From contig NZ_MPZV01000003.1 of NCBI RefSeq assembly GCF_002020355.1, positions 124,001-188,000 on the forward strand: a stretch of 64,000 nucleotides of DNA, read 5' to 3'. Shown here in pieces: positions 32,308 through 48,502 of this stretch (its first letter is position 1; every line of letters begins with the position of its first letter). The translations under genes and the position numbers were made by a program. The notes beneath the pieces were generated by a model. That model was not told where the DNA came from and made no database searches. It saw only the letters and a program-made list of their open reading frames with translations. Source of the DNA: Thioclava sediminum (GTDB taxonomy: Bacteria > Pseudomonadota > Alphaproteobacteria > Rhodobacterales > Rhodobacteraceae).

Positions 32308-32391
32308 ATGAGAGATGCGATGACGACAGATGACGCCCTGATCCGCGCAGCGAAGCTCTCGGTCGCGCCGATGATGGATATTAGCGACTGA
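32308..32391 (+). pseudogene. dusA: 5' remnant of dusA left outside the island
   Basis: ATG 32308 (or 32320) opens MRDAMTTDDALIRAAKLSVA then PMMD, which aligns with RLSVAPMMD at the N-terminus of the intact dusA at 47495. After PMMD the frame enters the island and stops at ISD*. This is the original 5' end of the chromosomal gene, now cut off from the body of dusA by 15.2 kb. It retains the native start and presumably the native promoter. Confidence 0.88.
32362..32378 (+). repeat. attL core of the dusA-integrated island
   Basis: GTCGCGCCGATGATGGA, repeated as GTCGCCCCGATGATGGA at 47546-47562 (16 of 17 identical). It encodes VAPMMD of DusA, the segment used as target by the established dusA-specific integrase family. 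Confidence 0.9.
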
Positions 32392-32399
32392 CAGAAAAA

Positions 32400-32436
32400 C
32401 ACCGCCTTCCCATGGGGTTAGGCGGTGCGTTTTCTC
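32400..32436 (+). terminator. intrinsic terminator just inside attL
   Basis: CACCGCCT (32400-32407) pairs with AGGCGGTG (32420-32427) around a 12-base loop and is followed by CGTTTTC; the flanking A-run makes it usable in both directions. It would stop transcription of the dusA remnant from entering the island. Confidence 0.75.
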
Positions 32437-32447
32437 GGAATCATACT
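32434..32447. promoter_or_regulatory. integrase arm-type repeat near attL
   Basis: CTCGGAATCATACT here is identical to 47414-47427 beside attR, and CGGAATCATAC recurs inverted at 47387-47398. Shared sequence at both island ends outside the core repeat is expected of integrase or excisionase binding sites. Confidence 0.6.
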
Positions 32448-32494
32448 TGGACCCGAATCGGCAATGTTTTTCAGCGGCCTGCGTCAAGGGCGTC

Positions 32495-32755
32495 TCAGCC
32501 GTAAAGCTGATCGAATTCCTTCTTCGCTTCTTCCATCCGGTCGTCGAGGTACTGCGCCAGTTCAACTAGGCCAACGCCCTTGGCGCTCTTCTGGCTCGCC
32601 TCCATCCGCACAAGCGGCAGGGGAAGCTTGCCGTCGGCGATCTTGCGCAGGAACTTGATCGGCGTCAGGTGGGGAAAGAAATCCGCGACCACTCGGTCAA
32701 CAGAGATGATGGGCTGACCCTGATATCGGGCCATGAGCATCCAGATAGTGTCCAT
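32495..32755 (-). CDS. PrtN-type (pyocin activator) regulator
   Basis: An 86-residue protein matching the PrtN family: MDTIWMLMARYQGQPIISVD, FFPHLTPIKFLRKIADGKLP and LVRMEASQKSAKGVGLVELA. PrtN of Pseudomonas activates pyocin genes after DNA damage; small PrtN homologues are frequent at the end of phage-like islands in proteobacteria, where they probably control late genes or excision. It is the gene nearest attL. About 105 bp upstream lie two identical TGTCAC-N5-GTGACA operators in inverted array, so its transcription is likely repressor-controlled. RBS is weak. Confidence 0.8.
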   Translation of the reverse strand: MDTIWMLMARYQGQPIISVDRVVADFFPHLTPIKFLRKIADGKLPLPLVRMEASQKSAKGVGLVELAQYLDDRMEEAKKEFDQLYG

Positions 32756-32859
32756 TCTAGTGCGTATCCAAATTCAAGTGGGCCTCCTTTCTCCTTGAGA
32801 TACGTTTCGGTAAGGGCACTATCGCACGGCCAGAGAAGTCGCGCAAGTCACTGAAAACA

Positions 32860-32905
32860 TGTCACTAAATGTGACATTTTGCCGGAAATGTCACATTTAG
32901 TGACA
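32860..32905. promoter_or_regulatory. twin operator: TGTCACTAAATGTGACA and its mirror copy
   Basis: Site 1 (32860-32876) and site 2 (32889-32905) each consist of 6-bp arms TGTCAC/GTGACA around a 5-bp A/T core, and the two sites are perfect mirror images about 12 intervening bases. They lie between the divergent ends of the PrtN-type gene and the membrane protein gene, the expected place for a phage-type repressor to act. Confidence 0.75.
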
Positions 32906-32946
32906 GGGCGGCTGACGCCGCCCAACAACCTCGCCCACGTGGGGCA

Positions 32947-33432
32947 TCACGGAAGGCTCGTAAAAGTCAGGTAGTAGCCGAAGCCCAGAGCGATCAGGCC
33001 GAGGACCACCTGCAAGCCGATTTCTCGCCTGCTGATCTTAAGAACCACTGCGAGAAATGCACTGAAAGCGAAGAGCACCATTCCGACGACGACGCCTAAA
33101 AGGAGCCCCTCGAAGCGTGAGATGTAGATCGCGAGCCACAAGTTCGCGGGTATCGCAGCAAGCTTAAATATCGCCCCTAGAGTGCCGTGGAGCACAGGGG
33201 GGTCTAGTGCGGGGTGTGGCGACTGCTGGGCGCGGACGAGAACGCCGAAGTAGACACAAGCGCCATAGAAACAGAGGGCAATGCCTAGAAGGGAACCCTG
33301 CTCAAGAAGTGTATGAAACAATGCCTGTCTATCTCCGTGCAAAATAAAAATGAGCTTTAGGCCCTGATACGCCAAGCGCATAGCAAGGGTTGGCCGAAGG
33401 CGAGCGCCTTCGACCTTACGGTTATCACTCAT
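32947..33432 (-). CDS. four-helix membrane protein of unknown function
   Basis: A 161-residue protein with about four hydrophobic segments: LLEQGSLLGIALCFYGACVY, ATLGAIFKLAAIP-like GTLGAIFKLAAIPANLWLAI, LLLGVVVGMVLFAFSAFLAV and LQVVLGLIALGFGYYLTFTS. The N-terminus (MSDNRKVEGARLRPTLAMRL) is basic and cytoplasmic by charge. I recognise no family. It is the last gene of the run tape measure - 71-residue gene - this gene, so it may be linked to particle function, for example a holin-like or superinfection-exclusion role, but nothing in the sequence proves that. Confidence 0.65.
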   Translation of the reverse strand: MSDNRKVEGARLRPTLAMRLAYQGLKLIFILHGDRQALFHTLLEQGSLLGIALCFYGACVYFGVLVRAQQSPHPALDPPVLHGTLGAIFKLAAIPANLWLAIYISRFEGLLLGVVVGMVLFAFSAFLAVVLKISRREIGLQVVLGLIALGFGYYLTFTSLP

Positions 33433-33557: not shown

Positions 33558-33773
33558 CTAGCCGATCTGTATGCCGCCGTCAGGCGGTGCCGGGTCGTCG
33601 GGTTGGGGGCCCGCGTCAGCGGGCGCGGCAACCGTCCAGAAGGTCAGGCCGTCCGCGCTCGCGATCACTTCGACGCCCGCCCGGTGAAGGGCTCGCAGCT
33701 TCTCGGTGGTGGGTTCGATAAGCTCGCGATACTGTCCGAGCGGATGCCGCGCGTTGGGTTCGTTGTTAGTCAT
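33558..33773 (-). CDS. small protein following the tape-measure gene
   Basis: A 71-residue protein, MTNNEPNARHPLGQYRELIE then PTTEKLRALHRAGVEVIASA, ending in an Asp/Pro-rich tail. Its ATG overlaps the end of the tape-measure gene by 8 bases, so translation is probably coupled; AAATGGCC-type RBS is weak. In tailed phages small genes next to the tape measure often encode chaperones or minor tail proteins; whether this applies here is unknown. A mini-hairpin (33609-33624) lies in the PADAG codons of its tail. Confidence 0.6.
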   Translation of the reverse strand: MTNNEPNARHPLGQYRELIEPTTEKLRALHRAGVEVIASADGLTFWTVAAPADAGPQPDDPAPPDGGIQIG

Positions 33774-36700
33774 TTGAGCGAATGGCCTCCCGACCTGCGC
33801 GCGCCATGTCGGCGGCGATCTGTTTCTTCGACTTGCGGAAGCTGTCCGCATCCGGCGTGTTCACGGTCATGTTGATCGTCTGCGGGGCGTAGACCTTACC
33901 GCCACCGCCCCCGTCGCTCATCTCCACCGGGACCTTGCGCCCTTTCGAGAGCGGGATAACCGCCTCGTTGGGATGCAGCACCGCCGGAATTCCCGAGGTG
34001 TTGTGCGTGCCCTCGGCGTAGTGCGGAGCGCTGCGGAAGGCGGCGACGGGCGTGGAGGAGAAGCCCACCGGCTGCGTGGAAATCCCGCCTTCTTTGAACG
34101 CGCCTAGCGCCATGGACAGAACACCGCCCCAGCCGCCCAGAGAGGCGAGGAGACCGCCGCCAGCGGCCCCACCTGTGCCGCCACCTGCAACGGCAGCTCC
34201 GAGGATGGGTGCGCCTGCCTGAGCCCCGCTGACGATGCCCTGCCGCATGCTCGACGCGCCCTGCGTCGACGCTGCGCGGACCTGCACCCCGGTAGAGATG
34301 CCCGCAAGGCGCTGTTGCTGCGCAGCCTGAGCCCCGCCCATCGCCACGCCCGACTGCAACGAGGTCTGGGCCTGCACGCCGCCCGAGGTCATCGCTTGCC
34401 CGATCTGGGCCGCGACGGTCTGGCCCGCCTGCATCATGGCCGTGCTGATCTGTGTGGCGGCTTGCGCGCCGCCTGCGGCTACGCCCGATCCGTCCGCCGA
34501 AACGCTGGCACCGCCCCAGCCAGCGACCATATCGCCCATCCCGCCGATGACTTGATCAAGGCCGGTGGCTTTCAGAAGCTCGCCCGTTGCAAGCGGGGCG
34601 AGGGCGTCAGCGAAGCTGTTCAGGATCGAGTCCCCGAGCTTCTCCAGCGAGAAGTCGCCCGTCATCAGGTCATGCATACTGGATTGAATGCCGCCGATGA
34701 CGTTCGTCTCGATATCGTTCGCGGCGGCGCGCCAGCTCGGCAGGCCCTTTTCGAACTCTCGAACGGGGTCGCGCGCGGCCTCGGTCAGGGCCTTGTTGAG
34801 AGAAATTCCAGCGTCGATTTGCTTGAGGATCGCGACCGTCCCGGCGTCCACTGCGCCGCCCATAGCTGCGGCAGCCCCGGCGTAGGCCTGTGCGGCCTCT
34901 TCGTTCTGGAACATGCCGCTTGCGGAGGCGGCGAGGGCCACACGCTCTTTGTTCAGACCGGTCACCCGATCTTGCAGGCTGTTGTTGAGCTTCTCAACGG
35001 CTTTCTGTTCATCGGTCAGATGTTTCGCACGCGAGCCTTTTCGAGCGGGCTTGTTCGCTGCCGTAAGTTGCTTGCGCAGTTCGGCCTGTTTCTGGCCCAG
35101 CGCTTCAAGCTCTTGAATCTGCTTGTATTCTGCGGCCACCTGATCAACGTTGATCGTCTGCCCGGTTTCCTGAGCGTGGGCGACCATATCTTGAAGCTGC
35201 ACGCGGCGGTTCGCGGCGGCGGCGGTCCATCCCTCCGAGAGCTGAATCCCTAGGCTCTTGTTCTGGGCCTGTATGGCGGTGATCTGTTGGGCCACACTCT
35301 TGCCCATGATCGCGAGGGCGTTCGGGACGCTCCCGAGGTTCTGGAGGAGGCGGGCAGCTTCATCGGCAGCCGTCCCGATCTCGGCCCGCAGGTTGCTGGC
35401 AGCCCCGGCGGCGGCGTTCGTCGCGGTGCCGCTGCCCTCGCTCGCGGCTTTCAGCTTCATCGCCGCATCTTCGGCCCGGATCAATTGGGCGAGCACGCCG
35501 CGCGCGCCGCCTTCGGCCTTGTCGAGGCCCCCGGTCGTGCTTTCGACCTCTTGGCGCAGCTTCGTGATTGCCGCGAGCTGATCGTCGAAGGTCCGGGCGC
35601 TCTGAATATCCTTCATCAGCCCGAGGAAGGTCCGGGCGCGGTCGGACGAGGTGTCGAATGCGCGCGCGACGGCGTCGATATCGCCTGTGAACGGGTTCCC
35701 GTCAGAGGTTAGGGCGTCCCGGATGCTTGCGACCATGTCGCCATTCGCCATGGCGGCTTCGATTTCGGCGACTTTGCGCAGCCGCTCCAGATGGGCGTCG
35801 AGTGCGGCATTCACAGCCCCATACTCTTGACGCAAGTTGCGAAGGTTGTGGCCCGCGAGGGCGTCGGTCGCGTTGCGTAGGGCGGTTATCTTGGATTCCG
35901 CGTCCGAGAGGCTATCGGCGAAGCTCTTCGTCGCCTCTTTGCCCGATCCCATCCACTGCACCAGTGCAGCCCCGGCGGCAATCACGCCAATCGTCACGAG
36001 CGAGACCGGATTAATCATCGACGTGAAGCCCGCCGCGAGGGTGCGCAGGATCGCGGCACGGCCCCCGAGCCCGTTTAGCATCTGCGAAACCTGCGTGCCC
36101 TGCTGGAGGGCCAAAACAAACGGGTTCTGCCCCGCCGCCATCATCACCCCGATGTCGTTGAACTGCGCGGCCATGTAAGCCGTTTCATGCCCGCTGACGC
36201 GGGCGCTCTTCGCAAATCGGTCATTCGCTGCCCCCGCAGCAAGCAAAGACTGCGCAGCGACCTCGCGCGCTTGCGCGGCTTTGACGGCGCTCATGGCCCC
36301 GGCATCTTCAAGCTGCTGGATTTCGGACAGGGCGCGCGCGTATTGCTCGCTCGACGCGTAAACGGAATCGTATTTCGCGCGCAGGGCGTTGAGCGCGTTG
36401 GCTTCCTGTGTCGCGGCGCGGCTCGCTTCCTCGGTCTGACGCGCAAGCATGGCCTGTTCTCCGCGCAGGTGTTCGGCTGCGACAGTGGTCTGGAGGAGGC
36501 CGCTGCGTAGATCGTCGAAACCGGATTTCGCGGCGCGGACGTCGAGAGGGGAGGAGGCGGCGAGGAGGTCGGTCTTGAGGCGCGTTAGCGCCCCTTCGAG
36601 CTGAGCAATCCCGGCGGTATCGCCGAGGTCCGACAGGCGGAGGGCGAGACGCTGGGCAGCTTGTTCGCTCTGTCGGATCGCGGATGCGCTGGCGAGGGCC

Positions 36701-36975
36701 GTGCGTTGGATTTGGGCGGCGGCTTTGTCGCTGGCGCTCGCTGCCGAGGTCTGGGCCGCTGCGAGGCCCTTGGCTTCGCGCTGCGCGCTCTTGAGCGGCG
36801 TGACGTCGATCTCCGGGCGGATGGTCTTGAGCTTGGTAAACGCGCCCGAGGTGTCCCGTTCGAGATCACGAACGGCACGTTTGACGGATGCGATTGCGGC
36901 GGTGAATTCGCGCGCGCCTTTCTTGGCTGGCGCGGCGTCGATCAAGAGGCCGATGGAGTGGGTTTTGTCTGTCAT
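33766..36975 (-). CDS. phage tail tape-measure protein
   Basis: A 1069-residue protein of the prophage tail length tape-measure type. The N-terminal half is helical and Ala-rich (AAIASVKRAVRDLERDTSGA, repeated Ala/Gln heptads). The family core ETAYMAAQFNDIGVMMAAGQ NPFVLALQQGTQVSQML (written here as two parts) and the hydrophobic LRTLAAGFTSMINPVSLVTI GVIAAGAALVQW segment follow. The C-terminus has the tail-spike-side motif HYAEGTHNTSGIPAVLHPNE and AVIPLSKGRKVPVEMSDGG. ATG 36975 (MTDKTHSIGLLIDAAPAKKG) is preferred because it begins the conserved start. It is the only phage structural gene in the island; the usual neighbours (major tail protein, tail assembly chaperones, tail tip) are absent. 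Confidence 0.88.
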   Translation of the reverse strand: MTDKTHSIGLLIDAAPAKKGAREFTAAIASVKRAVRDLERDTSGAFTKLKTIRPEIDVTPLKSAQREAKGLAAAQTSAASASDKAAAQIQRTALASASAIRQSEQAAQRLALRLSDLGDTAGIAQLEGALTRLKTDLLAASSPLDVRAAKSGFDDLRSGLLQTTVAAEHLRGEQAMLARQTEEASRAATQEANALNALRAKYDSVYASSEQYARALSEIQQLEDAGAMSAVKAAQAREVAAQSLLAAGAANDRFAKSARVSGHETAYMAAQFNDIGVMMAAGQNPFVLALQQGTQVSQMLNGLGGRAAILRTLAAGFTSMINPVSLVTIGVIAAGAALVQWMGSGKEATKSFADSLSDAESKITALRNATDALAGHNLRNLRQEYGAVNAALDAHLERLRKVAEIEAAMANGDMVASIRDALTSDGNPFTGDIDAVARAFDTSSDRARTFLGLMKDIQSARTFDDQLAAITKLRQEVESTTGGLDKAEGGARGVLAQLIRAEDAAMKLKAASEGSGTATNAAAGAASNLRAEIGTAADEAARLLQNLGSVPNALAIMGKSVAQQITAIQAQNKSLGIQLSEGWTAAAANRRVQLQDMVAHAQETGQTINVDQVAAEYKQIQELEALGQKQAELRKQLTAANKPARKGSRAKHLTDEQKAVEKLNNSLQDRVTGLNKERVALAASASGMFQNEEAAQAYAGAAAAMGGAVDAGTVAILKQIDAGISLNKALTEAARDPVREFEKGLPSWRAAANDIETNVIGGIQSSMHDLMTGDFSLEKLGDSILNSFADALAPLATGELLKATGLDQVIGGMGDMVAGWGGASVSADGSGVAAGGAQAATQISTAMMQAGQTVAAQIGQAMTSGGVQAQTSLQSGVAMGGAQAAQQQRLAGISTGVQVRAASTQGASSMRQGIVSGAQAGAPILGAAVAGGGTGGAAGGGLLASLGGWGGVLSMALGAFKEGGISTQPVGFSSTPVAAFRSAPHYAEGTHNTSGIPAVLHPNEAVIPLSKGRKVPVEMSDGGGGGKVYAPQTINMTVNTPDADSFRKSKKQIAADMARAGREAIRSND

Positions 36976-37603
36976 ATGTGGGGTTCTCGCGAGCGCTGTC
37001 GGGCGGCGCGATGTGGGTGAGGAGGACGGCAGGCAGGTTCGGTTCGGGTATCCCGGCGCGCCCCGAGGAGAAGCGCGCCGGGCCGACAACTACCCACAAA
37101 ACTACTATAGCTGAAAATGGCGATATTTCATAGGTTTGCGCAAAACGGTTCATCTCGTTTCGAGGGCAATGCAACGGTCTTCCGGGGGCGGTTTCGGGCA
37201 TGTGCACCAATTACGCCGAAAAAGATTTGCCTAAATTCGGGGGTATCGCCGTGTCCGAAAGAGGGGTGGGGGCTTTCAGGCTGGGTCCCCCGGTCGAAAG
37301 CATCTCACTGTTGCTGAATCCGGGCCAAATCGTGGCATATGGGGCGTTTGTTGCTGAATCCTGAGGGGGCGAGTTGCACTCACAATTTTGCGCAGCACCT
37401 GTGGGGCAAAATGGGGGTGGGGGTATACCCCCTGAGGAGCCTCATAAGGCATTGAGAACACAAGATAAAAGTTGAGTTTGATGGTGCTGGGGGGAGGCTT
37501 GCTCAAGCCCGCTGACGCGGGCGCGGTGAGGGGGAGCGAGCCCGTCCGCTTATCTTATGACGATTCAGCCAGTCCCGACGCGCTGAGCGGGCCTGTCGGG
37601 CGG
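36976..37603. other. 628-bp region without a convincing gene
   Basis: Between the tape-measure and recombinase genes no frame has both codon-like composition and a ribosome site. It holds an exact 13-bp direct repeat TGTTGCTGAATCC at 37309-37321 and 37349-37361 (40 bp apart), a palindrome GGGGGTATACCCCC at 37419-37432, and one mini-hairpin (37507-37522). It presumably contains the tape-measure promoter. Confidence 0.55.
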
Positions 37604-38266
37604 TCAGGCAGCGAGCCGCTTAAGAGCGTTCGAAACGCTCATAGGTGCCCAGCTTTTGCCCCTCGGCGTGGTGATCGCGGCGGCGTTCAGGGCGTCTGCG
37701 ATCCGGGCCAACGTCGCACCGGAGTCGCGCATCGGGATGATGATCTGGGCGACACGCTGGGCGGCGGCGTCAGCCGCCTCGCGGGCAGCCTCGTTGCGCT
37801 TCATGGTGGCATCGCGAAGACCTCCGAGCTGGACGCCACGGGCCTTGGCTGCGGCGAGGGCTTGCTTCGTGCGGAGACTGATGAAGCTGCGCTCTTGCTC
37901 CGCCAGCGCAGCGTAGATATGGAGCTGGAACGCGTCAGCGTTCGGCATGCTCGCAACCCTTATTTTTAAGGCGGGATCGTCCATCAGAGCCGCGATGAAG
38001 CTGACCTTGCGAGACAGCCTGTCCAGCTTTGCCACCAGCAATTCCGCGCCCTCTGAGCGGGCAAGTGTGATCGCTTTTTGCAGCTCGGCGCGGGCATCGT
38101 TCTTACCGCTCAGCACGTCTGTAAAGGTCGCCAGCACCTCAAAGGGCGTGTCGCTATAGTTGTCGAGGAAGAGGGCAATATCGCGATCTTGCGCCTCCAG
38201 TCCGAGGCCAGACTCTCCCTGCGAGGGGGTCGAGACGCGGCGGTAAATCACATATTTCCGGGTCAT
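37604..38266 (-). CDS. small serine recombinase (resolvase/invertase family)
   Basis: A 220-residue recombinase. The catalytic Ser stands in YRRVSTPSQ; QDRDIALFLDNYSDT, ELLVAKLDRLSRKV and AALAEQERSFISLRTKQALA AAKARG complete the resolvase domain, and the C-terminus (IADALNAAAITTPRGKSWAP MSVSNALKRL) is the DNA-binding domain. ATG 38266 (MTRKYVIYRRVST) begins the conserved strand; AAAGGCC precedes it. Since integration uses the tyrosine integrase at 46298, this enzyme may resolve multimers, invert a segment or be a passenger. A 31-bp palindrome at 38417-38447 lies upstream. Confidence 0.88.
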   Translation of the reverse strand: MTRKYVIYRRVSTPSQGESGLGLEAQDRDIALFLDNYSDTPFEVLATFTDVLSGKNDARAELQKAITLARSEGAELLVAKLDRLSRKVSFIAALMDDPALKIRVASMPNADAFQLHIYAALAEQERSFISLRTKQALAAAKARGVQLGGLRDATMKRNEAAREAADAAAQRVAQIIIPMRDSGATLARIADALNAAAITTPRGKSWAPMSVSNALKRLAA

Positions 38267-38416
38267 GTCGGGGCCTTTCAAAATCGTCATCGTTCGTTGT
38301 GATCTTTATAAGGCCTCCGATGCATGATTCGCGAGGCTTTTCAATGGGTTGATGCGTCACAAATCTGTTTCGGGATCGGCTCCAATGCGGGGTGAAGGGC
38401 GTTTCGACCGGATGAT

Positions 38417-38447
38417 CACGAAATGTAATGTGGTGTAACATTTCGTG
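38417..38447. promoter_or_regulatory. 10-bp inverted repeat between recombinase and a divergent gene
   Basis: CACGAAATGT (38417-38426) and ACATTTCGTG (38438-38447), perfect arms with an 11-base spacer AATGTGGTGTA. It lies in the 306-bp divergent region between the recombinase (minus) and the gene at 38573 (plus), so a shared operator or a resolvase sub-site is plausible. Confidence 0.55.
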
Positions 38448-38572
38448 AGGTTGCATCTGTTGCGGTCGGCGGCGGCTGACGCATGTCGATTCGGGCTAAA
38501 CGCCGAAACTTTCGTGTCAAGCCTAATTCAGCTAAGGTGCCCAAAGTTTGAACAGATACCTAGAGGTCCACA

Positions 38573-39289
38573 TTGAACGAGCATCACAAAGATCAGAACA
38601 GAGACGCGGAAATTTCTAGCTCCACCGACCATAGAGGCCCCCGCAAGCAGTATGGTTTGCCTAAGGTAAAGCCCAAGGACGAGGAAGGTGTTACCATCAC
38701 TGTTGCGCAGTCGCGAGACACTCTCTCAAGGATGGCTGCGTTGATGAACACGCCCAGCCTGCTCAAGTTCGTCGATCAAGTAAAAGAAGCGCAGGAAGCC
38801 AGCGAGAGATTGGATTCCCAGCGCGGAGGATTGCGACGTGAAAGAGAAGTCCGCAGCCGCGCCGTATTTCCGTACGCGAACGTCGACTTGTCCGCTGTTG
38901 CGAGTCCGGCTGAAAAGCGACTGGAGACCCTGACGGCGGTTCAGAGAGAGGGTGTCGAAACCTTGGCGGCGATCCAAGAGGGGGCACGAGAAAGCAGTGC
39001 GACTGCGAAGTCCGCGTTTAGGGTCGCCGTCGTGGTCGGTGTTGTCACCGCTGTAAGCGTGATACTTACTGCCATCTCCACATTCGGCCCGAATAGGGAT
39101 TTGGATCACCTCGGGAGAGAAGTTTCTGACTTTAAGGGGCAACTGGCGGCGATGCGGGACGAGCAAAACGCGCAACGGCAAGAACTGATCGACGCGCTCA
39201 CCGCTGCAGATCAAGTGGCGGCTGATCCTGTCGGGGGAGCGCTGAGCAAGGGTGCGTCGAAAACTAACGAAGCGAGCGATCCACCCTAA
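38573..39289 (+). CDS. single-span membrane protein with coiled coil, unknown function
   Basis: A 238-residue protein, the only plus-strand gene in the island. The start is TTG 38573 with AGAGG seven bases upstream; no ATG fits better. A hydrophilic N-terminal part (to about 145) with charged helices (KFVDQVKEAQEASERLDSQR) leads to one membrane helix (FRVAVVVGVVTAVSVILTAI) and a short C-terminal coiled coil (LGREVSDFKGQLAAMRDEQN). I recognise no family. Its opposite orientation and own promoter region suggest independent, perhaps constitutive expression, as for a maintenance or exclusion function. Confidence 0.65.
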   Translation: MNEHHKDQNRDAEISSSTDHRGPRKQYGLPKVKPKDEEGVTITVAQSRDTLSRMAALMNTPSLLKFVDQVKEAQEASERLDSQRGGLRREREVRSRAVFPYANVDLSAVASPAEKRLETLTAVQREGVETLAAIQEGARESSATAKSAFRVAVVVGVVTAVSVILTAISTFGPNRDLDHLGREVSDFKGQLAAMRDEQNAQRQELIDALTAADQVAADPVGGALSKGASKTNEASDPP

Positions 39290-39294
39290 GGTGC

Positions 39295-39477
39295 TCACCC
39301 TCTGTTCGTGCACGAGATGCAGGTCGTCTGCTTTCGCTCGATGCCTGAGAAGCCGCAGCGCGGGCACTCCTCTGCATCTCTTGCCTTAGCCTTCCCCTTA
39401 CACGTGGGGCAGGGGGTGGGCTCGTGTCGGATTACACCTGTTCCGCCACAGGCAGGGCAATGCTGTCTCTTTGTCAT
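39295..39477 (-). CDS. small zinc-ribbon protein
   Basis: A 60-residue protein with four CxxC-type knuckles: HCPACGGTGVI, TPCPTCKGK, EECPRCGFSG and TTCISCTNRG. The CxxCxGxG-like first and second knuckles resemble the DnaJ zinc finger; two Zn ions could be bound. ATG 39477 has GAAGG eight bases upstream. It is convergent with the plus-strand gene ending at 39289 (5 bp between stops) and lies next to the iteron array. A nucleic-acid or protein-binding role is likely from the fold class only. Confidence 0.65.
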   Translation of the reverse strand: MTKRQHCPACGGTGVIRHEPTPCPTCKGKAKARDAEECPRCGFSGIERKQTTCISCTNRG

Positions 39478-39555
39478 GCGGGAAGCCTTCACCTTTGCCG
39501 AGGGCGTGTCTAGCGGAAAGCGTGATGCCCGCTAACGCGGGCAGGGGGCGAGAGA

Positions 39556-42800: not shown

Positions 42801-43084
42801 AGAGACGCGCGAGGCGGACGCCCGAAAATCACACCCTTCGGCACCGGCAGCGGGTCATGGGGCATATCGCGAAGATGATCCGCTACATGTGAACGGGGAC
42901 GGACGTCCGCGCCGTGTTCATTGATCCAATCGTCAAACCGGATCACCTTCGCGCTTGTCTCTTCATCTCGCTTGGCGCGTTCGGCTTCGCTGAGGCTAGC
43001 TTTTTTAAGGGCTGCTTTAAGGGCCTCTTCGCTGAGGCCATCTTTTTCATGGGCGTCAGGGGCCTCTGCGTGGTCGTTCTTCAT
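39863..43084 (-). CDS. primase-helicase replication protein
   Basis: A 1073-residue protein. Residues about 130-330 form a bifunctional primase-polymerase-like domain (AMTLAYALRYARAGLFVADS, KVPLGAGWQKRASMD, VLDEDGEEGMAAIAALEAEH, SGSGNGRHRIFR, VDIRGEGGQIIAAPSIHKSG). A charged linker with a long helix follows. The C-terminal part is an SF3-like helicase (DUF5906/VirE-like): Walker A VQGEQGTGKSKVF, Walker B-like KIFMTCEESFWGG, sensor VSNDKWMIPTDDEDARRFLV. This is the layout of self-priming replication proteins of satellites and plasmids such as P4 alpha. Four mini-hairpins lie within the gene. The iteron array begins at its stop codon. Confidence 0.85.
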   Translation of the reverse strand: MKNDHAEAPDAHEKDGLSEEALKAALKKASLSEAERAKRDEETSAKVIRFDDWINEHGADVRPRSHVADHLRDMPHDPLPVPKGVIFGRPPRASLYHTERAEGARQRAAEELGDELTEAQHLLFEAGVRRVSEHFADTADHNAMTLAYALRYARAGLFVADSYAIDPRTGAGMSMSGEAKVPLGAGWQKRASMDRAEIVDFWTGSGTYPANRDGIEWNYKRPRYPRNVSIVLPYGCGLFVLDEDGEEGMAAIAALEAEHGPLPKTLDSRSGSGNGRHRIFRASRPIRNTASQVAHKVDIRGEGGQIIAAPSIHKSGNFYQWADGCAPWECEIADAPAWLENLAHDAMKTNATKVKSERQKARREAREGGKSTTSGGLGFEGHLARIGDGDDRDGFDAPIYRAALSWWGVNEDGDEAELFDTLREVILLAPCNDDRAEHRYAADDYLTNRIAQARTYIEENRAAEAEADREEADALDAARAALRDNLTEEEGKTALAANAAQVALSRLVEMGISQEDAADYVEEAKKDVLRQLETRAEDRDTDPVKEAKEEAAGTPSPAILSPLYDERLVDSEGFMVRAEAAPGLYRAFGIQPKADNAEVRMRLEIRDQMFAALNARVSWVVLDGEAKWALHAEAGEAVRMWKEATINKLFVNRAVSYWEGEGDKAKVKMIKPADVITYARQRATYLDTCFEPDPAKAKAAVARGAFNLWTGFAVDPAPGDWSRLRGHILDQICGGDVDLFNWVLTWLASLFARPGVKIPSAIAVQGEQGTGKSKVFDWVRRAIGAAAIKISNGKHLTGNFNAHMDGKIFMTCEESFWGGAKGDAGIIKDLISSETLQIEGKFANLVERPNYINMAFVSNDKWMIPTDDEDARRFLVLTCLPTRKQDAAFFGAIDDQMENGGLEAMVHELMHWQPEAVGLTWDSLRNPPVTEGLRQQVGMGLRGPMARLAAILESGELTGRERGGSEFYYELSDDSETVVARSHLMLALYPDTERGNMDTEAKDAIAKLLGEDADGGSNKRTVHYWGGFRRDDRDKGEDLDLIELREPLQKRDRFVTIPPLSTARTTLATFGRG

Positions 43085-43139
43085 TCAAGTCCTCGGTGTC
43101 GTGGGCGTGGTAGGGTGGCCCGCTGACGCGGGCCGATAT

Positions 43140-43316
43140 TCACTCAAGCAGTGCGGTGATCTCGTCGGAGAGGCGGCGGCAGCGCTCGCGCTTCTCCGGA
43201 GTCTCGAGTCCGCGCTCGACCTCTTCTTTAAGCTGCGCGCTCAGGCGGATTGCTGCGATCTCGACGCCGTCGAAATGGGCGGTCATCGGCAGGCCGGTGG
43301 TGGTGGTCGTGGTCAC
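43140..43316 (-). CDS. 58-residue helical protein of unknown function
   Basis: Start GTG 43316 with AAAGAGGGA seven bases upstream; an ATG 30 bases later is the alternative. Sequence pattern: a short Thr-rich lead, MTAHFDGVEIAAIRLSAQLK, then EEVERGLETPEKRERCRRLS and DEITALLE, a charged helical protein. It lies 55 bp upstream of the primase-helicase gene on the same strand with a mini-hairpin (43117-43134) between. Function unknown; a small regulator or replication accessory is possible. Confidence 0.55.
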   Translation of the reverse strand: MTTTTTTGLPMTAHFDGVEIAAIRLSAQLKEEVERGLETPEKRERCRRLSDEITALLE

Positions 43317-43571
43317 GTGCGTGTCCCTCTTTTTCGATTGGTTGAAGCGCGCTGATCCAAGCGCCTCACGAGGCTACGCGGGCGGGAGATAAAGAGTCAA
43401 CATGCTGATTTTACTTAATAAAAGTCGGCTTGAAGCTGAAAATGATACTGAGTGGCAGTTTTGAAGAATTGCGCTCAGCGGGCATTTCTTTCACTCAAGC
43501 GACGGACAAGATGGGCGTTTTCGAAGTTTGCTCGAAAGTGTAGATGCGGCGCTGGCAGATTCAGTGACACT

Positions 43572-43814
43572 TCACCCGCGCCGCCGTCGGTCTTCATCTG
43601 CCGGAGGGAGTCGAATCACGTCGCCCTTTTCGATCCGGCGCAAGACCTCGGCGGCAAGGCGGATTTCCTCGTCTTCGATCTGCTGGGCCGACCACTTCGC
43701 GCGCAGCGCCGCTATTTTGCGCTGACGCGCACCTTCGGCCCGTCGACGCGTGGCAGTCGCAGGGTCCGGACGCACACCGGGGAGCGGCAACAGAGGCTGG
43801 GAAAAGAAGCTCAA
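43572..43814 (-). CDS. 80-residue basic protein of unknown function
   Basis: The likely start is TTG 43814, which overlaps the stop of the upstream gene (TTTGA) and has GGGGGAC in front. The body has a basic helix (RRRAEGARQRKIAALRAKWS) and an amphipathic helix (EDEEIRLAAEVLRRIEKGDV), ending in a charged tail (EDRRRRG). The basic N-terminal half could bind nucleic acid. It is the last gene of the overlapping series 45986 to 43572. A mini-hairpin lies in its ARQRK codons. Confidence 0.5.
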   Translation of the reverse strand: MSFFSQPLLPLPGVRPDPATATRRRAEGARQRKIAALRAKWSAQQIEDEEIRLAAEVLRRIEKGDVIRLPPADEDRRRRG

Positions 43815-44146
43815 ATCGGCGTCCCCCAGACGTGGGAGACCGCTTGGCCGATCTGAATGTCGAAGTCTTGGTTTTCGAGATTCACTTCGTGGTGGTGTTT
43901 CCACTCACCGCTCGGAGAGCGATGCCAAATTTCTTCTTCCTCCGTCTCGGTGTCAGGCTCGAAACCCGCGCGCCGAAGCGCGCGATAGGCGATCCGGTCA
44001 CCCGTTCGTTCGGGGAGCCACACGGCGAGGTCGAGAAAGGGAATGGAATAAGAGGTGTCATCGTCGTCGCAGTAGGATCGCAATAGTGCTGCGACCTCTT
44101 CGACAAGGACATTTTCTAGCGCTAGCGACGCGCAGGCATTGCACAT
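43811..44146 (-). CDS. 111-residue acidic protein of unknown function
   Basis: MCNACASLALENVLVEEVAA opens with a CxxC and continues with an acidic protein (YCDDDDTSYSIPFLDLAVWL and DTETEEEEIWHRSPSGEWKH). The predicted charge is strongly negative, a property shared with DNA-mimic and anti-restriction proteins of mobile elements, but no family is recognised. It overlaps the next gene by four bases (or one codon) and is 134 bp after the preceding one, so it may have its own promoter. Confidence 0.6.
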   Translation of the reverse strand: MCNACASLALENVLVEEVAALLRSYCDDDDTSYSIPFLDLAVWLPERTGDRIAYRALRRAGFEPDTETEEEEIWHRSPSGEWKHHHEVNLENQDFDIQIGQAVSHVWGTPI

Positions 44147-44280
44147 GGGTAAGCTCTCATTTGTAGGAAGGAAGAAGGGGGCGGCGGGGCGGTCTGGAGT
44201 CGCCCCGCCGCGACCCGGCGAGGAATGGCAAAACTCACCGGGAGTGCCGCGCGCGCAAGCACTGGCGCGCGGTTGTTCTG

Positions 44281-44526
44281 TCAGGTCCGAAGCGCGCGAG
44301 CCCGGACGCTATTCTTGCGGCGCGTCTCGCCGTCGAGGGTGTCGACGATGCCGCCCATCTCGCGGATGCGCCGCGACAGGAGAGAAAAGTGATACCCATT
44401 GACCATCGCGCCGGTGGGCAAATATTCGCGCGCTCCATCGCCGCGCACTGGGCCAAACAGCGCTTCCAGAGGAACCTGATCTTTCAGCACCCGCTGGGCG
44501 ATTTTCTCGATCTCGGAGTCGGTCAT
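44281..44526 (-). CDS. 81-residue protein of unknown function
   Basis: ATG 44526 (MTDSEIEKIAQRVLKDQVPL) overlaps the stop of the gene before it by four bases (ATGA), which decides this start over the longer Arg-rich frame. The protein reads as a helical N-terminus followed by AMVNGYHFSLLSRRIREMGG and a basic C-terminus. No family recognised. It belongs to the tightly overlapping series of small island genes. Confidence 0.6.
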   Translation of the reverse strand: MTDSEIEKIAQRVLKDQVPLEALFGPVRGDGAREYLPTGAMVNGYHFSLLSRRIREMGGIVDTLDGETRRKNSVRARALRT

Positions 44527-44759
44527 GGCAGGGCCACCTCGTGGAGCCGAGCCACGCCGTTCTGATCGGCCCCGGCGGGGCTCTCGCGCCATCCGAGCGC
44601 GCGTCCGAGTGCGCGGACCTGCTCGCCCTTGAGGTGAATCCCCTTGCCGTTGCCCTCAGGCGCGAAGAAGGCCCCGCTCAACCCCGCGAAACGGATATGG
44701 CGGAGCCAATCCCCGCCTGCGCGGCGACAGTATGTGATAAGTTCTTCGACGGTGACCAT
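44523..44759 (-). CDS. 78-residue protein of unknown function
   Basis: MVTVEELITYCRRAGGDWLR then HIRFAGLSGAFFAPEGNGKG: a small alpha/beta protein without a recognised family. The start overlaps the stop of the 153-residue gene (TAATG) and the stop overlaps the next start (ATGA), showing translational coupling on both sides. Confidence 0.6.
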   Translation of the reverse strand: MVTVEELITYCRRAGGDWLRHIRFAGLSGAFFAPEGNGKGIHLKGEQVRALGRALGWRESPAGADQNGVARLHEVALP

Positions 44760-45220
44760 TACGCAAGCCCGACTTTGCGCGCGTAGCTGAGACGTGCGCC
44801 TGCGGGAAGCGCTTGAATCGCGCGCATTGCGGCAGCCGTCTCTTCTGGACTGAGAGTGGCGCGCTCTTCGCGGGGGCGTGCGGCTTCGATCTCGCGTCCA
44901 AGAGACATCTTCTGCGACGGATTCAAGCGCGAGATTTCAGCGTGAGCGGCGCTCTCGGAGTCGCTGAGTTGTCGCGCCAGCTCGGCTTTTTGGGCCGCAA
45001 GCGCCACCTGCGGCAGGCGCTTCGCCTCTTCCAGCGCGGAGTCGGTCAGTCCCATATCTGTAAGACACGCGAGCCGCACACTTGCCACCTGTTTGCAGTC
45101 ATCGGGTGTCAGCTCGATCCCGATTTGGGCGGCGTCGGCGATCAGCTTCGCGCTGGCGGCTTCAAACCGCGCCTGCGCAAGTTGGTCGCTCGCGAGGATG
45201 TTATCGAATGTTTCCGTCAT
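44759..45220 (-). CDS. 153-residue helical protein of unknown function
   Basis: An almost entirely helical, Ala/Glu-rich protein: MTETFDNILASDQLAQARFE, SALEEAKRLPQVALAAQKAE, EISRLNPSQKMSLGREIEAA. Length and charge resemble phage-encoded scaffolding or replication-accessory proteins, but I recognise no family. AAGGATCACC lies before the ATG. It lies 8 bp after the upstream gene and overlaps the downstream one. Confidence 0.6.
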   Translation of the reverse strand: MTETFDNILASDQLAQARFEAASAKLIADAAQIGIELTPDDCKQVASVRLACLTDMGLTDSALEEAKRLPQVALAAQKAELARQLSDSESAAHAEISRLNPSQKMSLGREIEAARPREERATLSPEETAAAMRAIQALPAGARLSYARKVGLA

Positions 45221-45228
45221 GGTGATCC

Positions 45229-45474
45229 TTAAAAGTTTGCCTGCATGAGGACCGTTTGAACGGCCCCGGCGAGGTCTATTTCTTGAGGCGGCGTCTGGCT
45301 CGCCAACGTGTCAATCTCGACGTTTGAGAGACGACAGGTGGAGCGGAGCGCTCCCCGAAGGGCGTCTTCCATTTCCAGCGCCTGCGCGATGCCATCTTCG
45401 TCGCCGCCGATCCGGGCAATGAGGCGGCATGCTTTCGGCGAGGCCAGCAGGTGGGGGAGGAGCGGCGACGTCAT
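45229..45474 (-). CDS. 81-residue protein of unknown function
   Basis: MTSPLLPHLLASPKACRLIA then RIGGDEDGIAQALEMEDALR, a small helical protein. Start overlaps the upstream stop by four bases (ATGA). No family recognised; part of the coupled series of island genes. Confidence 0.6.
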   Translation of the reverse strand: MTSPLLPHLLASPKACRLIARIGGDEDGIAQALEMEDALRGALRSTCRLSNVEIDTLASQTPPQEIDLAGAVQTVLMQANF

Positions 45475-45986
45475 GCCGCAAGCTCCAGATCGGTCGGGCT
45501 CGGCGCAGTCGAATGCACCAGCGCGAGCGAGCGGCTGTATTCATGCCAGTTGGGCAGCCCGCTGCGGTCACCAGTGATGATGTATGGAAGCGTGGTGGGC
45601 GCGGCGATTGCGATATGCCATAGCCGGGGGACGTCGCCGAGATAGGCCGTCACGCCCCGAGCGGAGCCCGCGAGGGAAGCGAAGAAATTTCGGCGAACCG
45701 CCGAAGCTCGCGCCGCCATCTCCGGGTCGCAGTCGATCCAGTCGCTGAGAGCTTCGAGAAACGGCATCTGATCGAGCGTGGCGACAAAGATGGAGCCGTC
45801 ATCGCGCGCGCCGCGAACAAGCTCGGAGGCAGCTCCGCGATACTTCTTTTTTAGGCGGCTCAGGGCGAACGGCAGCGGATGCCGCCGGGGGTGGCCTTCG
45901 AACGGCAGCCCGGCAAGGTGCACCGAGGCGGTATCGCGCCCCACGCCGCAGCATGCGGCCCAGTCTTCAAGTGTAGTTGTCAGCAT
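45471..45986 (-). CDS. 171-residue protein, possible N-terminal helix-turn-helix
   Basis: First gene of the coupled minus-strand series. MLTTTLEDWAACCGVGRDTA SVHLAGLPFEG at the N-terminus resembles the start of small DNA-binding proteins (helix, CGVGRDT turn, second helix) such as terminase-small-subunit or AlpA-like wings, but this is weak. The remainder (ALSRLKKKYRGAASELVRGA, VTAYLGDVPRLWHIAIAAPT) is not recognised. A strong promoter with TTGACA-17-TATAGT ends 33 bp upstream, so the whole series 45986 to 43572 is probably driven from there. Confidence 0.6.
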   Translation of the reverse strand: MLTTTLEDWAACCGVGRDTASVHLAGLPFEGHPRRHPLPFALSRLKKKYRGAASELVRGARDDGSIFVATLDQMPFLEALSDWIDCDPEMAARASAVRRNFFASLAGSARGVTAYLGDVPRLWHIAIAAPTTLPYIITGDRSGLPNWHEYSRSLALVHSTAPSPTDLELAA

Positions 45987-46018
45987 TTTGTCGAATGATT
46001 TCCTTAGCTTACAATCGA

Positions 46019-46047
46019 ACTATACATTTTACTTGACTTTTTGTCAA
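46019..46047 (-). promoter_or_regulatory. sigma-70 promoter with embedded operator for the small-gene series
   Basis: On the minus strand the -35 box is TTGACA (46042-46047), the spacer 17 bp, the -10 box TATAGT (46019-46024). The -35 box is part of an inverted repeat TTGAC-AAAAA-GTCAA, so a repressor bound there would block the promoter. This is the best consensus promoter in the island. The 310-bp gap 45987-46297 otherwise holds one mini-hairpin (46164-46177) and the end of the integrase gene. Confidence 0.7.
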
Positions 46048-46297
46048 TGCGTTCGCCAAAACGGGTCAAAATGGGGCTCGGAAGAGCTGAATGATTCGGA
46101 AAATGCCGATTTTGTTGCGTAAAAACAGGTGTTTGGCGGATGGAATCACTGATTCGCTTTTGTGCCGCTAACGCGGCCCATCCCCAAATCCCCGAGTCCG
46201 GCCCCAGCGGCTCGCCGTCTGTCCCTCGTCGGCGCGGCAAAGAAAAACCCGCGCCGAGGTGGCGCGGGTGTGTTCCGGTGTTGGGTGGCGGTCGGCG

Positions 46298-47386
46298 TCA
46301 GCCGACGAAGCGGTCAATCCAGCTCCAGCCGTTGAACTTGTCGCCAATCTTCCGAACGTGCGTGTAGCGCTCCAAGCTCTTCCAGCTCCTGTGGCCTGTG
46401 ACCGCCGAGAGCTGCGGGACCGTTAGCCCCTTCTCCGCCAAGCGAGATGCGCCCTCGTGGCGGAGGTCGTGGAAGTGCAGGTCGTCGATTTCGCAGACCT
46501 TGCAGGCATCCGTAAAGCGTCGTGAAATGGTGTCGCTGTTATAGGGAAAAATGCGATCTTTGGTGCGCGGCATCGTCGCGATGATTGCAGGGCAGGGCTC
46601 CGGTAGGTCGACCCAGACGTCATTGCCCCTCTTTTGGCCGGGGTGCTTCATGTCACGCACCATCACGCGGCGCTCGTCTTCTTCATAGTCCGCCCACGTG
46701 ATGCGGCAGATTTCATCCTGCCTCCGCGTCGAGAAGATCGCAAAGAGCACCACCTTCGCCATCGGGATGCAGCGCGGGTCTGCCGCTGACGCGGCCTCAA
46801 AGTGCGTCAGGAGCTTGTCCAGCTCGTCGAGCGTCGGGCGTCTCGTGCGCTCGGCAGATCGTGCGGTGAGGCCGAGCCGTTTGCAGACACGCGCGGCTTT
46901 CTTCATCTCTACATCATCCAGCCGGAGTCCCCACGTCGAGTCGGCAATATCGAAGACTGCGCCGAGGTGAGAGAGGTAGTTCCCAGCGGTGCCGGGTGAA
47001 TTCAGGTCGGGGCGCTCGTGCAGCTCCTTAACGAAAGCCACGATATCAGGGGAGGTGATCGAGCCGCAGGGCATGTCCGAGATTTTGTATTCGGTGCGGA
47101 TGGTCCGCAGAACTTGCGCCTTTGTCTTCCCGATCTCCACCATGCTGTCGGCAAGGTAGCGGTCAATAGCATCGCCTAAGGTGATCTTCTTGGCCTTGCT
47201 CTTGATGGGCTTCTTGCCGTTCGCGATCTCGTTGTCGATCTCCTTCTCGCGCCGCTCCGCCCACGTCTTGGCGGTCTTCTCTTTGTCAAATGTCCGGGAT
47301 TCCTGCACGCCATGGGCGCGGCGGGTAATTTGCGCTACATAGGCGGTCGAACCGTCCTTTCTGGTGCGCTCTACAATAGTGGCCAT
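46298..47386 (-). CDS. int: dusA-type tyrosine integrase
   Basis: A 362-residue site-specific recombinase transcribed away from attR. The N-terminus MATIVERTRKDGSTAYVAQI is the arm-binding domain typical of integrases that target dusA; a core-binding domain follows (about 75-175), then the catalytic domain: Arg in FSTRRQDEICRI, His/Arg in HDLRHEG, His in TGHRSWKS and Tyr in ERYTHV. The gene lies 159 bp from the attR core with CGGAATCATAC repeats in between. Its stop codon is inside a mini-hairpin (46291-46306). Confidence 0.93.
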   Translation of the reverse strand: MATIVERTRKDGSTAYVAQITRRAHGVQESRTFDKEKTAKTWAERREKEIDNEIANGKKPIKSKAKKITLGDAIDRYLADSMVEIGKTKAQVLRTIRTEYKISDMPCGSITSPDIVAFVKELHERPDLNSPGTAGNYLSHLGAVFDIADSTWGLRLDDVEMKKAARVCKRLGLTARSAERTRRPTLDELDKLLTHFEAASAADPRCIPMAKVVLFAIFSTRRQDEICRITWADYEEDERRVMVRDMKHPGQKRGNDVWVDLPEPCPAIIATMPRTKDRIFPYNSDTISRRFTDACKVCEIDDLHFHDLRHEGASRLAEKGLTVPQLSAVTGHRSWKSLERYTHVRKIGDKFNGWSWIDRFVG

Positions 47387-47491
47387 CGTATGATTCCGTC
47401 TGACTTCGTATGACTCGGAATCATACTATGGGCTAGAACGGGCGTAAATGAGGCGAAATGAGCACAAAATCTGCTAAGTGCGTATGACTCG
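47387..47491. promoter_or_regulatory. integrase arm-type repeats near attR
   Basis: CGTATGATTCCG (47387-47398) and CGGAATCATAC (47416-47426) form an inverted pair; CGTATGACTCG occurs directly at 47408-47418 and 47481-47491. CTCGGAATCATACT (47414-47427) is repeated at 32434-32447 near attL. The cluster also overlaps the integrase promoter. Confidence 0.6.
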
Positions 47492-47494
47492 AAA

Positions 47495-48502
47495 ATGACG
47501 AAAAACGACAATATATCAACGCTTTCCGTGGCTTCTAGGCTATCAGTCGCCCCGATGATGGACTGGACCGACCGCCATTGCCGCTATTTCCACCGTCAGA
47601 TCAGCCGCAACGCGTTGCTGTATACCGAGATGGTTACCGCGCCTGCGGTGATTCATGGCGATCGCGAGCGGCTTCTCGGGTTTGACGCCGCCGAACATCC
47701 GGTGGCGCTGCAGCTCGGCGGTTCGGACGCGAAGGAACTGGCCGAGGCGGCGAAGGTCGGCGCGGATTTCGGCTATGACGAGATCAACCTCAACTGCGGC
47801 TGCCCGTCCGATCGCGTGCAATCCGGGGCCTTCGGCGCGGTTTTGATGAAAACGCCCGATCTGGTGGCCGAGTGCTGTGCCGCGATGATCGCCGCGCAAC
47901 CGGTAGAGGTTACTGTGAAATGCCGCATCGGTGTCGACGATCAGGACCCGCAAGAGGTGCTGCCCGAGTTCATCGAGAAGGTCGCCGCCGCCGGCGTGAC
48001 TCGCATCACGATCCATGCCCGCAAAGCTTGGCTGCAAGGCCTCTCGCCCAAGGATAACCGCGAAATCCCGCCGCTCGATTACCCGCTCGTCCACGCGATG
48101 AAGGCGGCCTATCCGCAGCTCCATCTGTCGATCAATGGCGGTATCAAAGATCTCGCCGCGGCCGAGGTGGAACTCGCCCAAGGGCTCGACGGGGTGATGG
48201 TGGGCCGCGCCGCCTATCATCAGCCGATGGAGGTGCTGGGCGCCGCCGATCAGCGCATCTGGGGGCAGGGCGAGGCCCGCGATCCCTTCGACGTGGCGCA
48301 GGCGATGATCCCCTATATCGCGCGCCATCTCGAGCGCGGCGGTAGGCTGCACCAGATCACCCGCCACATGCTCGGCCTGTTCCACGGCAAGCCCGGCGCG
48401 CGCCGCTTCCGGCAGATCCTGTCGGAAGGCGCGACCCGCGACGGTGCCGGGGTTGAACTTTTCGAGAGTGCGTTGTCAGCCGTGCGTGAACGGGTTAACT
48501 GA
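47495..48502 (+). CDS. dusA: tRNA-dihydrouridine synthase A with island-encoded N-terminus
   Basis: A 335-residue flavoenzyme reducing uridine to dihydrouridine in the tRNA D-loop. The catalytic Cys lies in LNCGCPSDRVQSGAFGA; RLSVAPMMDWTDRHCRYFHR, LQLGGSDAKELAEAAKVG, VTVKCRIG and INGGIKDL are the FMN and tRNA-binding blocks. The first 17 residues (MTKNDNISTLSVASRLS) come from island DNA and replace the native start left at 32308. Upstream of ATG 47495 there is no good Shine-Dalgarno sequence and transcription must start in the island, so expression may differ from the uninterrupted gene. Everything after attR is of chromosomal type. Confidence 0.94.
   Translation: MTKNDNISTLSVASRLSVAPMMDWTDRHCRYFHRQISRNALLYTEMVTAPAVIHGDRERLLGFDAAEHPVALQLGGSDAKELAEAAKVGADFGYDEINLNCGCPSDRVQSGAFGAVLMKTPDLVAECCAAMIAAQPVEVTVKCRIGVDDQDPQEVLPEFIEKVAAAGVTRITIHARKAWLQGLSPKDNREIPPLDYPLVHAMKAAYPQLHLSINGGIKDLAAAEVELAQGLDGVMVGRAAYHQPMEVLGAADQRIWGQGEARDPFDVAQAMIPYIARHLERGGRLHQITRHMLGLFHGKPGARRFRQILSEGATRDGAGVELFESALSAVRERVN
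47546..47562 (+). repeat. attR core of the dusA-integrated island
   Basis: GTCGCCCCGATGATGGA, one mismatch from the attL copy at 32362-32378. It encodes VAPMMD near the N-terminus of the intact dusA frame. Confidence 0.9.

Follow-up and report, generated by a model that had tools for sequence, protein, structure and literature searches.

The dusA island of Thioclava sediminum

We analyzed a window of 64,000 nucleotides from the Thioclava sediminum genome (contig NZ_MPZV01000003.1, positions 124,001 to 188,000), in which a 15.2-kb island (32355-47577) lies in dusA. The island encodes an intact tail tape measure protein (TMP) of 1069 residues (33766-36975; features lie on the minus strand unless noted otherwise), identified by Pfam PF06791 (TMP_2, 4.7e-15) and by tape-measure PHROGs; the 4.13-Mb genome has no second such match. 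Upstream of the TMP gene are a region resembling the genome ends of certain large phages, termed here the cos-like region (37115-37450, borders approximate; detected by hidden Markov models (HMMs) and local alignment), and a resolvase/invertase-type serine recombinase of 228 residues (37604-38290; PF00239, 1.4e-21), 78% identical to its copy in L041, one of the related loci (numbered with the prefix L) described below. The island also encodes a Prim-Pol/DUF5906 primase-helicase of 1073 residues (39863-43084; Prim-Pol 1.3e-30, DUF5906 2.6e-20), with relatives in L113/L114, L115 and L046. Two inverted clusters of GGGTCGC iterons (39544-39874, no strand assigned; arrays at 39555-39586 and 39836-39862) form a candidate origin of replication.

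The borders are marked by two 39-bp att-like repeats, 74% alike and without an assigned strand. The left copy (32355-32393) is the apparent original 5' end of dusA, while the right copy (47539-47577) lies within the present dusA gene (47495-48502). Translation of the left copy gives the dusA start running into a stop, and in the right copy an island-side start is joined to dusA. Among four congeners whose dusA was compared, two (L132 and L133) align on either side up to the core, where the flanks join, and so show the empty site; in the other two, alignment was obtained on the dusA side only. Next to the right border is the dusA-site tyrosine integrase of 362 residues (46298-47386; PF00589, 1.1e-16; phrog_1 integrase, 1.7e-43). 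A first-pass annotation of the sequence had described a dusA island with att repeats, a tyrosine integrase, a serine recombinase, a primase with iterons and an intact 1069-residue TMP, all of which are confirmed by the Pfam and PHROG matches and the repeats. It had also listed a PrtN-type regulator. The 86-residue product of 32495-32755 does have a PrtN-like match (PF11112, 5e-24), but it may be an excisionase (phrog_1300, 6.8e-26) instead of a regulator. An inverted repeat (32860-32905) with perfect 20-bp arms and a 6-bp loop lies near this gene.

The remaining genes are mostly small. Directly 3' of the TMP gene is a small gene (33558-33773) with counterparts in other islands, seven members of which were aligned. 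Between the recombinase and the iterons are an accessory-slot gene on the plus strand to which no function was assigned (38573-39289, from the gene call) and a zinc-finger-like protein of 65 residues (39295-39492; DnaJ_CXXCXGXG, 3.6e-5, below the cut-off), 58% identical to its L043 copy. A small-gene block (43140-45220) that includes g153 (44759-45220), and two genes of 81 and 171 residues at the head of the operon (45229-45986), likewise have counterparts in other islands; the 171-residue product may be a regulator. An uncertain small open reading frame of 161 residues (32947-33432) gave one weak PHROG match and no Pfam match above the cut-off, and our codon-usage gene caller retains just its last 44 codons. 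Gene calls beyond the lists of open reading frames came from this script of our own, which may miss small genes or misplace their starts. The fold of g153 had no match to PDB or viral models at E ≤ 0.001, and an Rfam scan of the island returned nothing reaching gathering scores.

In agreement with the first-pass annotation, no terminase, portal, capsid, lysis or further tail gene was recognized. Pfam and PHROG searches with ten larger or named island proteins returned nothing for head, packaging or lysis, the TMP being the sole tail match. Among 59 small proteins from seven islands (12 from the Thioclava island), none matched head, packaging, tail or lysis PHROGs at E ≤ 0.001, and the 13 PHROG families that were matched are primase, helicase or unnamed. 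In a control prophage, L116 (14 proteins), the same PHROG scan recovered families for the portal, capsid, protease, adaptor and tail. A different contig of the host genome (G000:C2:638681-643511) has portal and large-terminase genes about 4 kb apart.

Tape measure proteins in a family of related islands

The first-pass annotation had proposed searching other genomes for the same gene set. Searches with the TMP yielded ten further TMP-bearing loci with related modules (L041+L042, L043, L044, L113+L114, L115, L140, L142, L002, L003 and L057), and none of the resulting eleven showed a full structural module, pointing to a satellite family. L002 is from Pseudotabrizicola, L003 from Nioella and L057 from a viral contig, the other seven being from the same bacterial family, which the named relatives suggest is Rhodobacteraceae; L043 abuts a contig end at its start, and the contig of L057 is short (7.5 kb). 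The usual gene order is integrase, genes of the 171- and 81-residue types, g153, small genes, replication protein, a variable slot, serine recombinase, cos-like region, TMP and a small gene. The serine recombinase was found in nine of the eleven loci by tblastn or by eye, but not in L140 and L142; some integrases and recombinases of the relatives were recognized by eye. In eight relatives a tRNA gene (Phe, Pro, Thr, Val or Glu) lies at or near an end. The variable slot holds defense-like genes in some islands: AbiJ and CHC2 zinc domains occur together in one protein of L044 (9718-11130), a TIR protein like Thoeris ThsB was assigned to L113 (17630-18856) by elimination, and a TIR-domain gene is in or near the accessory slot of L140 (4324-4719). 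At E ≤ 1e-60, the TMP profile matched five of the 394 genomes sampled from the family and, in a sample of 385 from the class, only the Thioclava genome itself; at E ≤ 1e-30 it matched 26 of 390 genomes of the order, with nearly full-length matches in four (the three samples overlap). Among 72,556 plasmid records, one partial match was obtained at E ≤ 1e-20.

Several relatives depart from this plan. In a second PHROG set, covering 21 proteins of L140, L142, L003, L057 and L113, tail families came only from L003 and L057. L003 encodes a lambda gpI-like tail assembly protein (8524-9183, 2.5e-47) alongside the TMP, as well as a stretch weakly resembling the terminase small subunit, TerS (2305-2805), and its cos-like region was placed after the recombinase. 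L057 has pieces of tail-protein genes (476-1112) beside two divergent serine recombinases. These genes and fragments argue against a lone TMP in every relative. L301 (G046:C15:28000-47999), a third related island in genome G046, has the small-gene block, replication protein, an integrase recognized by eye and an Eco57I-type methyltransferase, without a TMP; it carries a TerS (Terminase_2, PF03592, 5.7e-8; phrog_51, 3.8e-11). L046, with primase, recombinase and a cos-like fragment, also has no TMP and is probably a relict.

The eleven island TMPs are 953, 979, 996, 1041, 1053, 1053, 1069, 1073, 1077, 1081 and 1090 residues long, and none has an internal stop. The six aligned first share 33-50% identity, except for one pair at 95%, from two islands of one genome. 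For this pair, the nonsynonymous rate (dN) is 0.046 and the synonymous rate (dS) 0.328 (dN/dS about 0.14), indicating that selection keeps the protein.

A search of the phage collection with the island TMP returned 100 matching records. The top matches among those listed are the ~147-150-kb phages RpAliso, MD18, RcXuper, MAL1, DSS3P8 and V10, over the C-terminal 39-42% of the protein; the DNA of the 3' part is 66-72% identical to these phages. RcXuper, RpAliso and DSS3P8 have full tail modules, inside which their annotated TMPs comprise 1900, 1909 and 1825 residues, respectively. The Thioclava TMP aligns with that of RpAliso in two ways, residues 8-1068 with 823-1908 (32% identity) and residues 4-627 with 3-610 (23% identity); some earlier TMP searches were numbered from a start 23 codons upstream, but not these alignments. 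Island TMPs generally match the N-terminus and the C-terminal 700-1000 residues of the phage TMPs, and thus resemble a helper-type TMP that retains its two termini but lacks about 800 residues.

A tree was built from the last 420 TMP residues of all 11 islands and of 6 phages or phage contigs, with the MD18 TMP left out. Islands and phages interleave, with five changes of label of which at least three are forced by supported branches: the Thioclava island pairs with RpAliso (99/99), and L057, L041, L043, L140 and L142 group with RcXuper (98/99). This mixing suggests that helpers have supplied the islands with TMP sequence on more than one occasion. Reported tail lengths allow a calibration. 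Phage L02 has a 240-nm tail (PMC9127768, excerpts) and a TMP of 1602 residues, giving 0.150 nm per residue, and DSS3P8, with a tail of about 300 nm (PMC4961962, excerpts) and a TMP of 1825 residues, gives 0.164. At 0.15-0.16 nm per residue, the Thioclava TMP predicts a tail of about 160-175 nm, compared with about 275-310 nm for a helper.

Putative packaging ends, replication proteins and a dispersed palindrome

The gap between recombinase and TMP measures 493-694 bp in eight islands. In the linear record of RcXuper the two ends share the same 12 bases, and when they are joined, the surrounding sequence is similar to the island gaps. From these record ends, we infer that the region is the cohesive end of the phage genome. 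A homologous region is present in RpAliso, DSS3P8, V10 and MD18, and its right-hand part only in the stretch of MAL1 examined; V10 and DSS3P8 are near-copies here. A nucleotide HMM built only from the end regions of four phages (RcXuper, DSS3P8, MD18 and RpAliso) was run on 123 loci (1.46 Mb). In addition to the Thioclava island, it matched L115 (6.2e-9), L041 (6.8e-8), L043 (4.2e-7), L044 (7.1e-7), L057 (7.2e-6) and L002 (1.4e-4), as well as phage MAL1 (2.4e-7), the next match outside islands and phages having E 1.4; L113 was missed and L003 reached only E 4.8. In the opposite direction, an HMM built from the islands matched V10, RpAliso, DSS3P8, MD18 and RcXuper (1.7e-9 to 4.8e-7), five of the six phages given, MAL1 not being among them, and its match in RcXuper spans the junction of the joined ends. 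L140, a later addition present in no model, gave 0.016 and 0.04 with the phage-only HMM, and 2.6e-10 with an HMM combining six islands and four phages. The combined HMM also matched L003 (2.7e-6), L113 (7.9e-5) and L046 (0.016). L301 gave 0.0055 (phage-only) and 4.3e-6 (combined), values from this 20-kb locus alone that are not comparable with the other E-values. Overall, 10 of the 11 TMP-bearing loci have cos-like support of some strength.

Among 115 further viral loci, the phage-only HMM matched L190 at 5e-8 and then nothing below 0.35, the combined HMM giving 1.1e-4 for L190; 40 more loci gave nothing below 0.1 by the phage-only HMM. The stretch in question, L190:1965-2234, resembles a phage end region and lies in a 98-kb viral contig.

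Local alignment of the Thioclava region with RpAliso scored 88, compared with 38.1 ± 5.3 for dinucleotide shuffles, none of 200 scoring as high. Seven of nine other islands tested also scored above all 200 shuffles, the exceptions being L113 (2/200) and the L003 gap (9/200; the HMM match of L003 lies elsewhere). The nearest phage by the cos-like region is also the nearest in the TMP tree for four islands: RpAliso for the Thioclava island, and the RcXuper group for L041, L057 and, by a narrow margin, L043. By blastn against 50,697 phages, the L041 region matched a single record, RcXuper, at bases 13-62 (E 0.5). The cos-like end and the TMP gene are 28 kb apart in RcXuper, so the islands did not acquire the two as one piece. 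The motif TGA(A/C)CCGTT, found upstream of the TMP and followed in the Thioclava island by a promoter-like site, was considered as a helper-type late promoter and rejected. It occurs within the end region of both RpAliso and MD18, as well as six times in RcXuper, and is therefore counted as part of the cos-like region.

The replication proteins of some islands are also related to phage proteins. That of L002 is 67% identical over 609 residues to RcXuper RCXUPER_133 and matches 63 phage records, led by RcXuper, RpAliso, V10, DSS3P8, MAL1 and MD18 (53-73% identity over 34-42% of its length), most of the remaining matches being Caulobacter and Brevundimonas phages. The L044 protein is 51% identical to a phage protein over 980 residues. 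The Thioclava primase matches 328 phage records, and among the closest listed are Lacusarx, Mwe-JY26, RXM, XM05 and L02, which are also among the relatives of the Thioclava TMP; the RDJL phages, matched by the primase, are not among the TMP relatives listed. The primase profile matched 56 stretches of viral contigs, none of them a relative.

A palindrome, CCGCTRACGCGG (core CGCTRACGCG), occurs in 13 copies at 33609-46790 of the Thioclava island, and GCCCGCTRACGCGGGC has five copies in the Thioclava genome, all within the island. In ten stretches from nine islands (121 kb; borders for counting are approximate), the core was counted 67 times, compared with 2 copies each in their flanks (122 kb) and in 22 control loci (436 kb); L142 has none. 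In its 12-base form, the palindrome is present in 21-32 copies in each of RcXuper, RpAliso, DSS3P8, V10, MAL1 and MD18, which are phages of Rhodobacter, Ruegeria or Phaeobacter type, and Erythrobacter phage L02 has no copy. We considered CCGCTRACGCGG as a mark linking satellite and helper and rejected it. The 16-base form occurs in at least 120 viral-contig stretches, other viral contigs often have a single copy, and several of the seven whole bacterial genomes counted show no excess of the 12-base form over its reversed control. The palindrome is therefore not specific, and only its density in the islands and the six phages is unusual.

Interpretation as a probable phage satellite

The dusA site, a replication protein with iterons, a helper-like end region and an intact but shortened TMP can be read directly from the island. 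Taken together, they make it likely that the island is a helper-dependent satellite parasitizing large CbK-like siphophages of the RcXuper/RpAliso/DSS3P8 type. The CbK-like label follows excerpts of PMC9127768, PMC7643831 and PMC4961962 for DSS3P8 and MD18, and homology for the other phages. Helper dependence, satellite particles and short tails are inferred from these features. In the proposed pathway, helper infection would lead to excision and replication of the island, and the helper terminase would cut at the cos-like site and package the island DNA. The island TMP, together with the helper's tail chaperone, tube and tail-tip proteins, would replace the long helper ruler, favoring satellite particles and hindering helper tail assembly. 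The first-pass annotation had suggested such ruler swapping, which is plausible since both ends of a helper-type TMP are kept with about 800 residues missing. Its view of the ruler as the only part kept did not hold, as the helper-like cos region (~37115-37450) had been overlooked. More broadly, we put at somewhat better than even the chance that these islands form an alphaproteobacterial satellite family on CbK-like siphophages that copies the replication domain and packaging end of its helpers and imposes a ruler about 55% as long as theirs, which would make satellite virions recognizable by their half-length tails.

Several observations weigh against this interpretation. On the Thioclava island itself, the phage-only HMM match (37290-37203, E 0.0052) is the weakest among the seven islands matched, the combined HMM match (37522-37218, E 0.014) is near model noise (0.064, 0.074), and the region is without the first GGGACCC copy. 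No cos-like region was detected in L142; L140 has its best cos match in MD18, but its TMP groups with RcXuper; and excerpts of the literature on these phages do not state their genome-end chemistry. The Thioclava primase is of a type other than the one shared with RcXuper, and the center of the Thioclava TMP (residues 195-503) matches smaller siphophages, among them RC1, RS1 and Pkon1, at 35-41%. Purifying selection on the TMP was measured in one pair only. No tail chaperone gene was found by profile search among the 59 small proteins of seven islands, although a highly diverged one could escape. Finally, cos-like sequence occurs in L301 and L046 although both lack a TMP, and the ruler is accordingly neither universal in the family nor essential to it.

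The same absences would be expected if the TMP were a hitch-hiking relic of recombination with helpers, with only cos and replication mattering and tails of helper length. The interleaving of island and phage TMPs on the tree also fits this account. We nevertheless regard it as quite unlikely in view of the uniform lengths of 953-1090 residues, compared with 1825-1909 in three helpers, the intact frames and, in one pair, the low dN/dS. An isolated structural gene together with a phage-type integrase could in principle be what is left of a decayed prophage, as the first-pass annotation had considered. This is highly improbable: an open TMP of similar length occurs in eleven loci, none of which showed a full structural module, the dN/dS of the one pair is low, and cos and TMP are not neighbors in RcXuper.

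Alternatively, the short TMP might serve as an anti-phage device that poisons the tail assembly of an infecting phage and shields the host population, rather than building a particle of the satellite's own. Tail assembly is a known defense target in satellites (PMC11364771, PMC12987554, excerpts), a TMP with both ends could compete for the chaperone and tail tip, and some islands have defense-like genes in their accessory slots. However, the TMP adjoins a helper-like cos and tracks the C-terminus of particular phages, for which use in a particle is the better fit, and PLE satellites (phage-inducible chromosomal island-like elements) require their own TMP for efficient transduction (PMC12987554, excerpts). 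We therefore consider the anti-phage role unlikely.

The proposed helper-dependent satellite has a close parallel in the PLEs, and the earlier premise that known satellites follow no such strategy is outdated. According to excerpts of PMC12987554, PLEs encode a chaperone and, in some cases, a baseplate hub besides their own TMP, were shown in 2026 to build chimeric tails, and have a TMP that differs from the helper's by 95 residues, or about 10 nm, without which transduction drops by 96-99.9%; the tail chaperone gene is conserved with tmp. Like PLEs, the islands would be chromosomal satellites of a large lytic phage, and they encode their own TMP, which differs in length from that of the helper type. 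Unlike PLEs, the islands have no chaperone that we could find, the length change is about 800 rather than 95 residues, the integrase is a tyrosine integrase and the helper type is non-contractile and CbK-like, with phages of Rhodobacter, Ruegeria and Phaeobacter matched in place of ICP1 of Vibrio cholerae. Satellite tail swapping is thus already known from PLEs, and the islands described here belong to a family unrelated to PLEs, in which the ruler differs far more in length and for which candidate helpers can be named by homology, the new element here.

Other mobile elements show partial likeness. Phage-inducible chromosomal islands (PICIs) share the integrase-regulator-replication layout, a size of about 10-15 kb and, in the source excerpts, an accessory defense region beside the replication gene, and L301 carries a TerS as PICIs do; in the Thioclava island, by contrast, no TerS or other packaging gene was recognized, and a cos-like copy is apparently used instead. 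Putative tmp genes are reported in some capsid-forming PICIs (PMC12987554, excerpts), whereas no capsid gene was recognized in the Thioclava island. Prophages differ in the terminase, portal, capsid and tail genes, of which only the TMP was recognized here. Islands specific to dusA have the integrase at the dusA 5' end and a prtN homolog in 60 of 94 cases (Farrugia et al. 2015, PMC4482086, excerpts), and the Thioclava island shares the integrase, att sites in the conserved 5' dusA segment and the prtN homolog. That class is defined by insertion site and has mixed cargo, however, and relatives of the Thioclava island adjoin tRNA genes. CbK-like phages themselves share the cos-like end, the TMP ends, the replication domain of some islands and the dispersed palindrome, but have genomes of about 150 kb and a TMP about 1.8 times as long.

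Searches of open-licence full texts listed no report of satellites of these phages or hosts. If the interpretation is correct, these islands would, as far as the literature searched shows, link a satellite family to CbK-like phages for the first time, and tail swapping would extend beyond PLEs, and the putative cases in other elements, to an unrelated alphaproteobacterial family. An island of 15 kb would then exploit a helper of about 150 kb with a prolate head, and the change of ruler would be large enough for a direct view by electron microscopy. Why a satellite should want a different ruler would become testable with laboratory phages. On the broader reading, members of the family would opt either for the TMP as a ruler or for TerS, the small terminase, and tail length would be a trait rewritten by satellites, as others rewrite capsid size.

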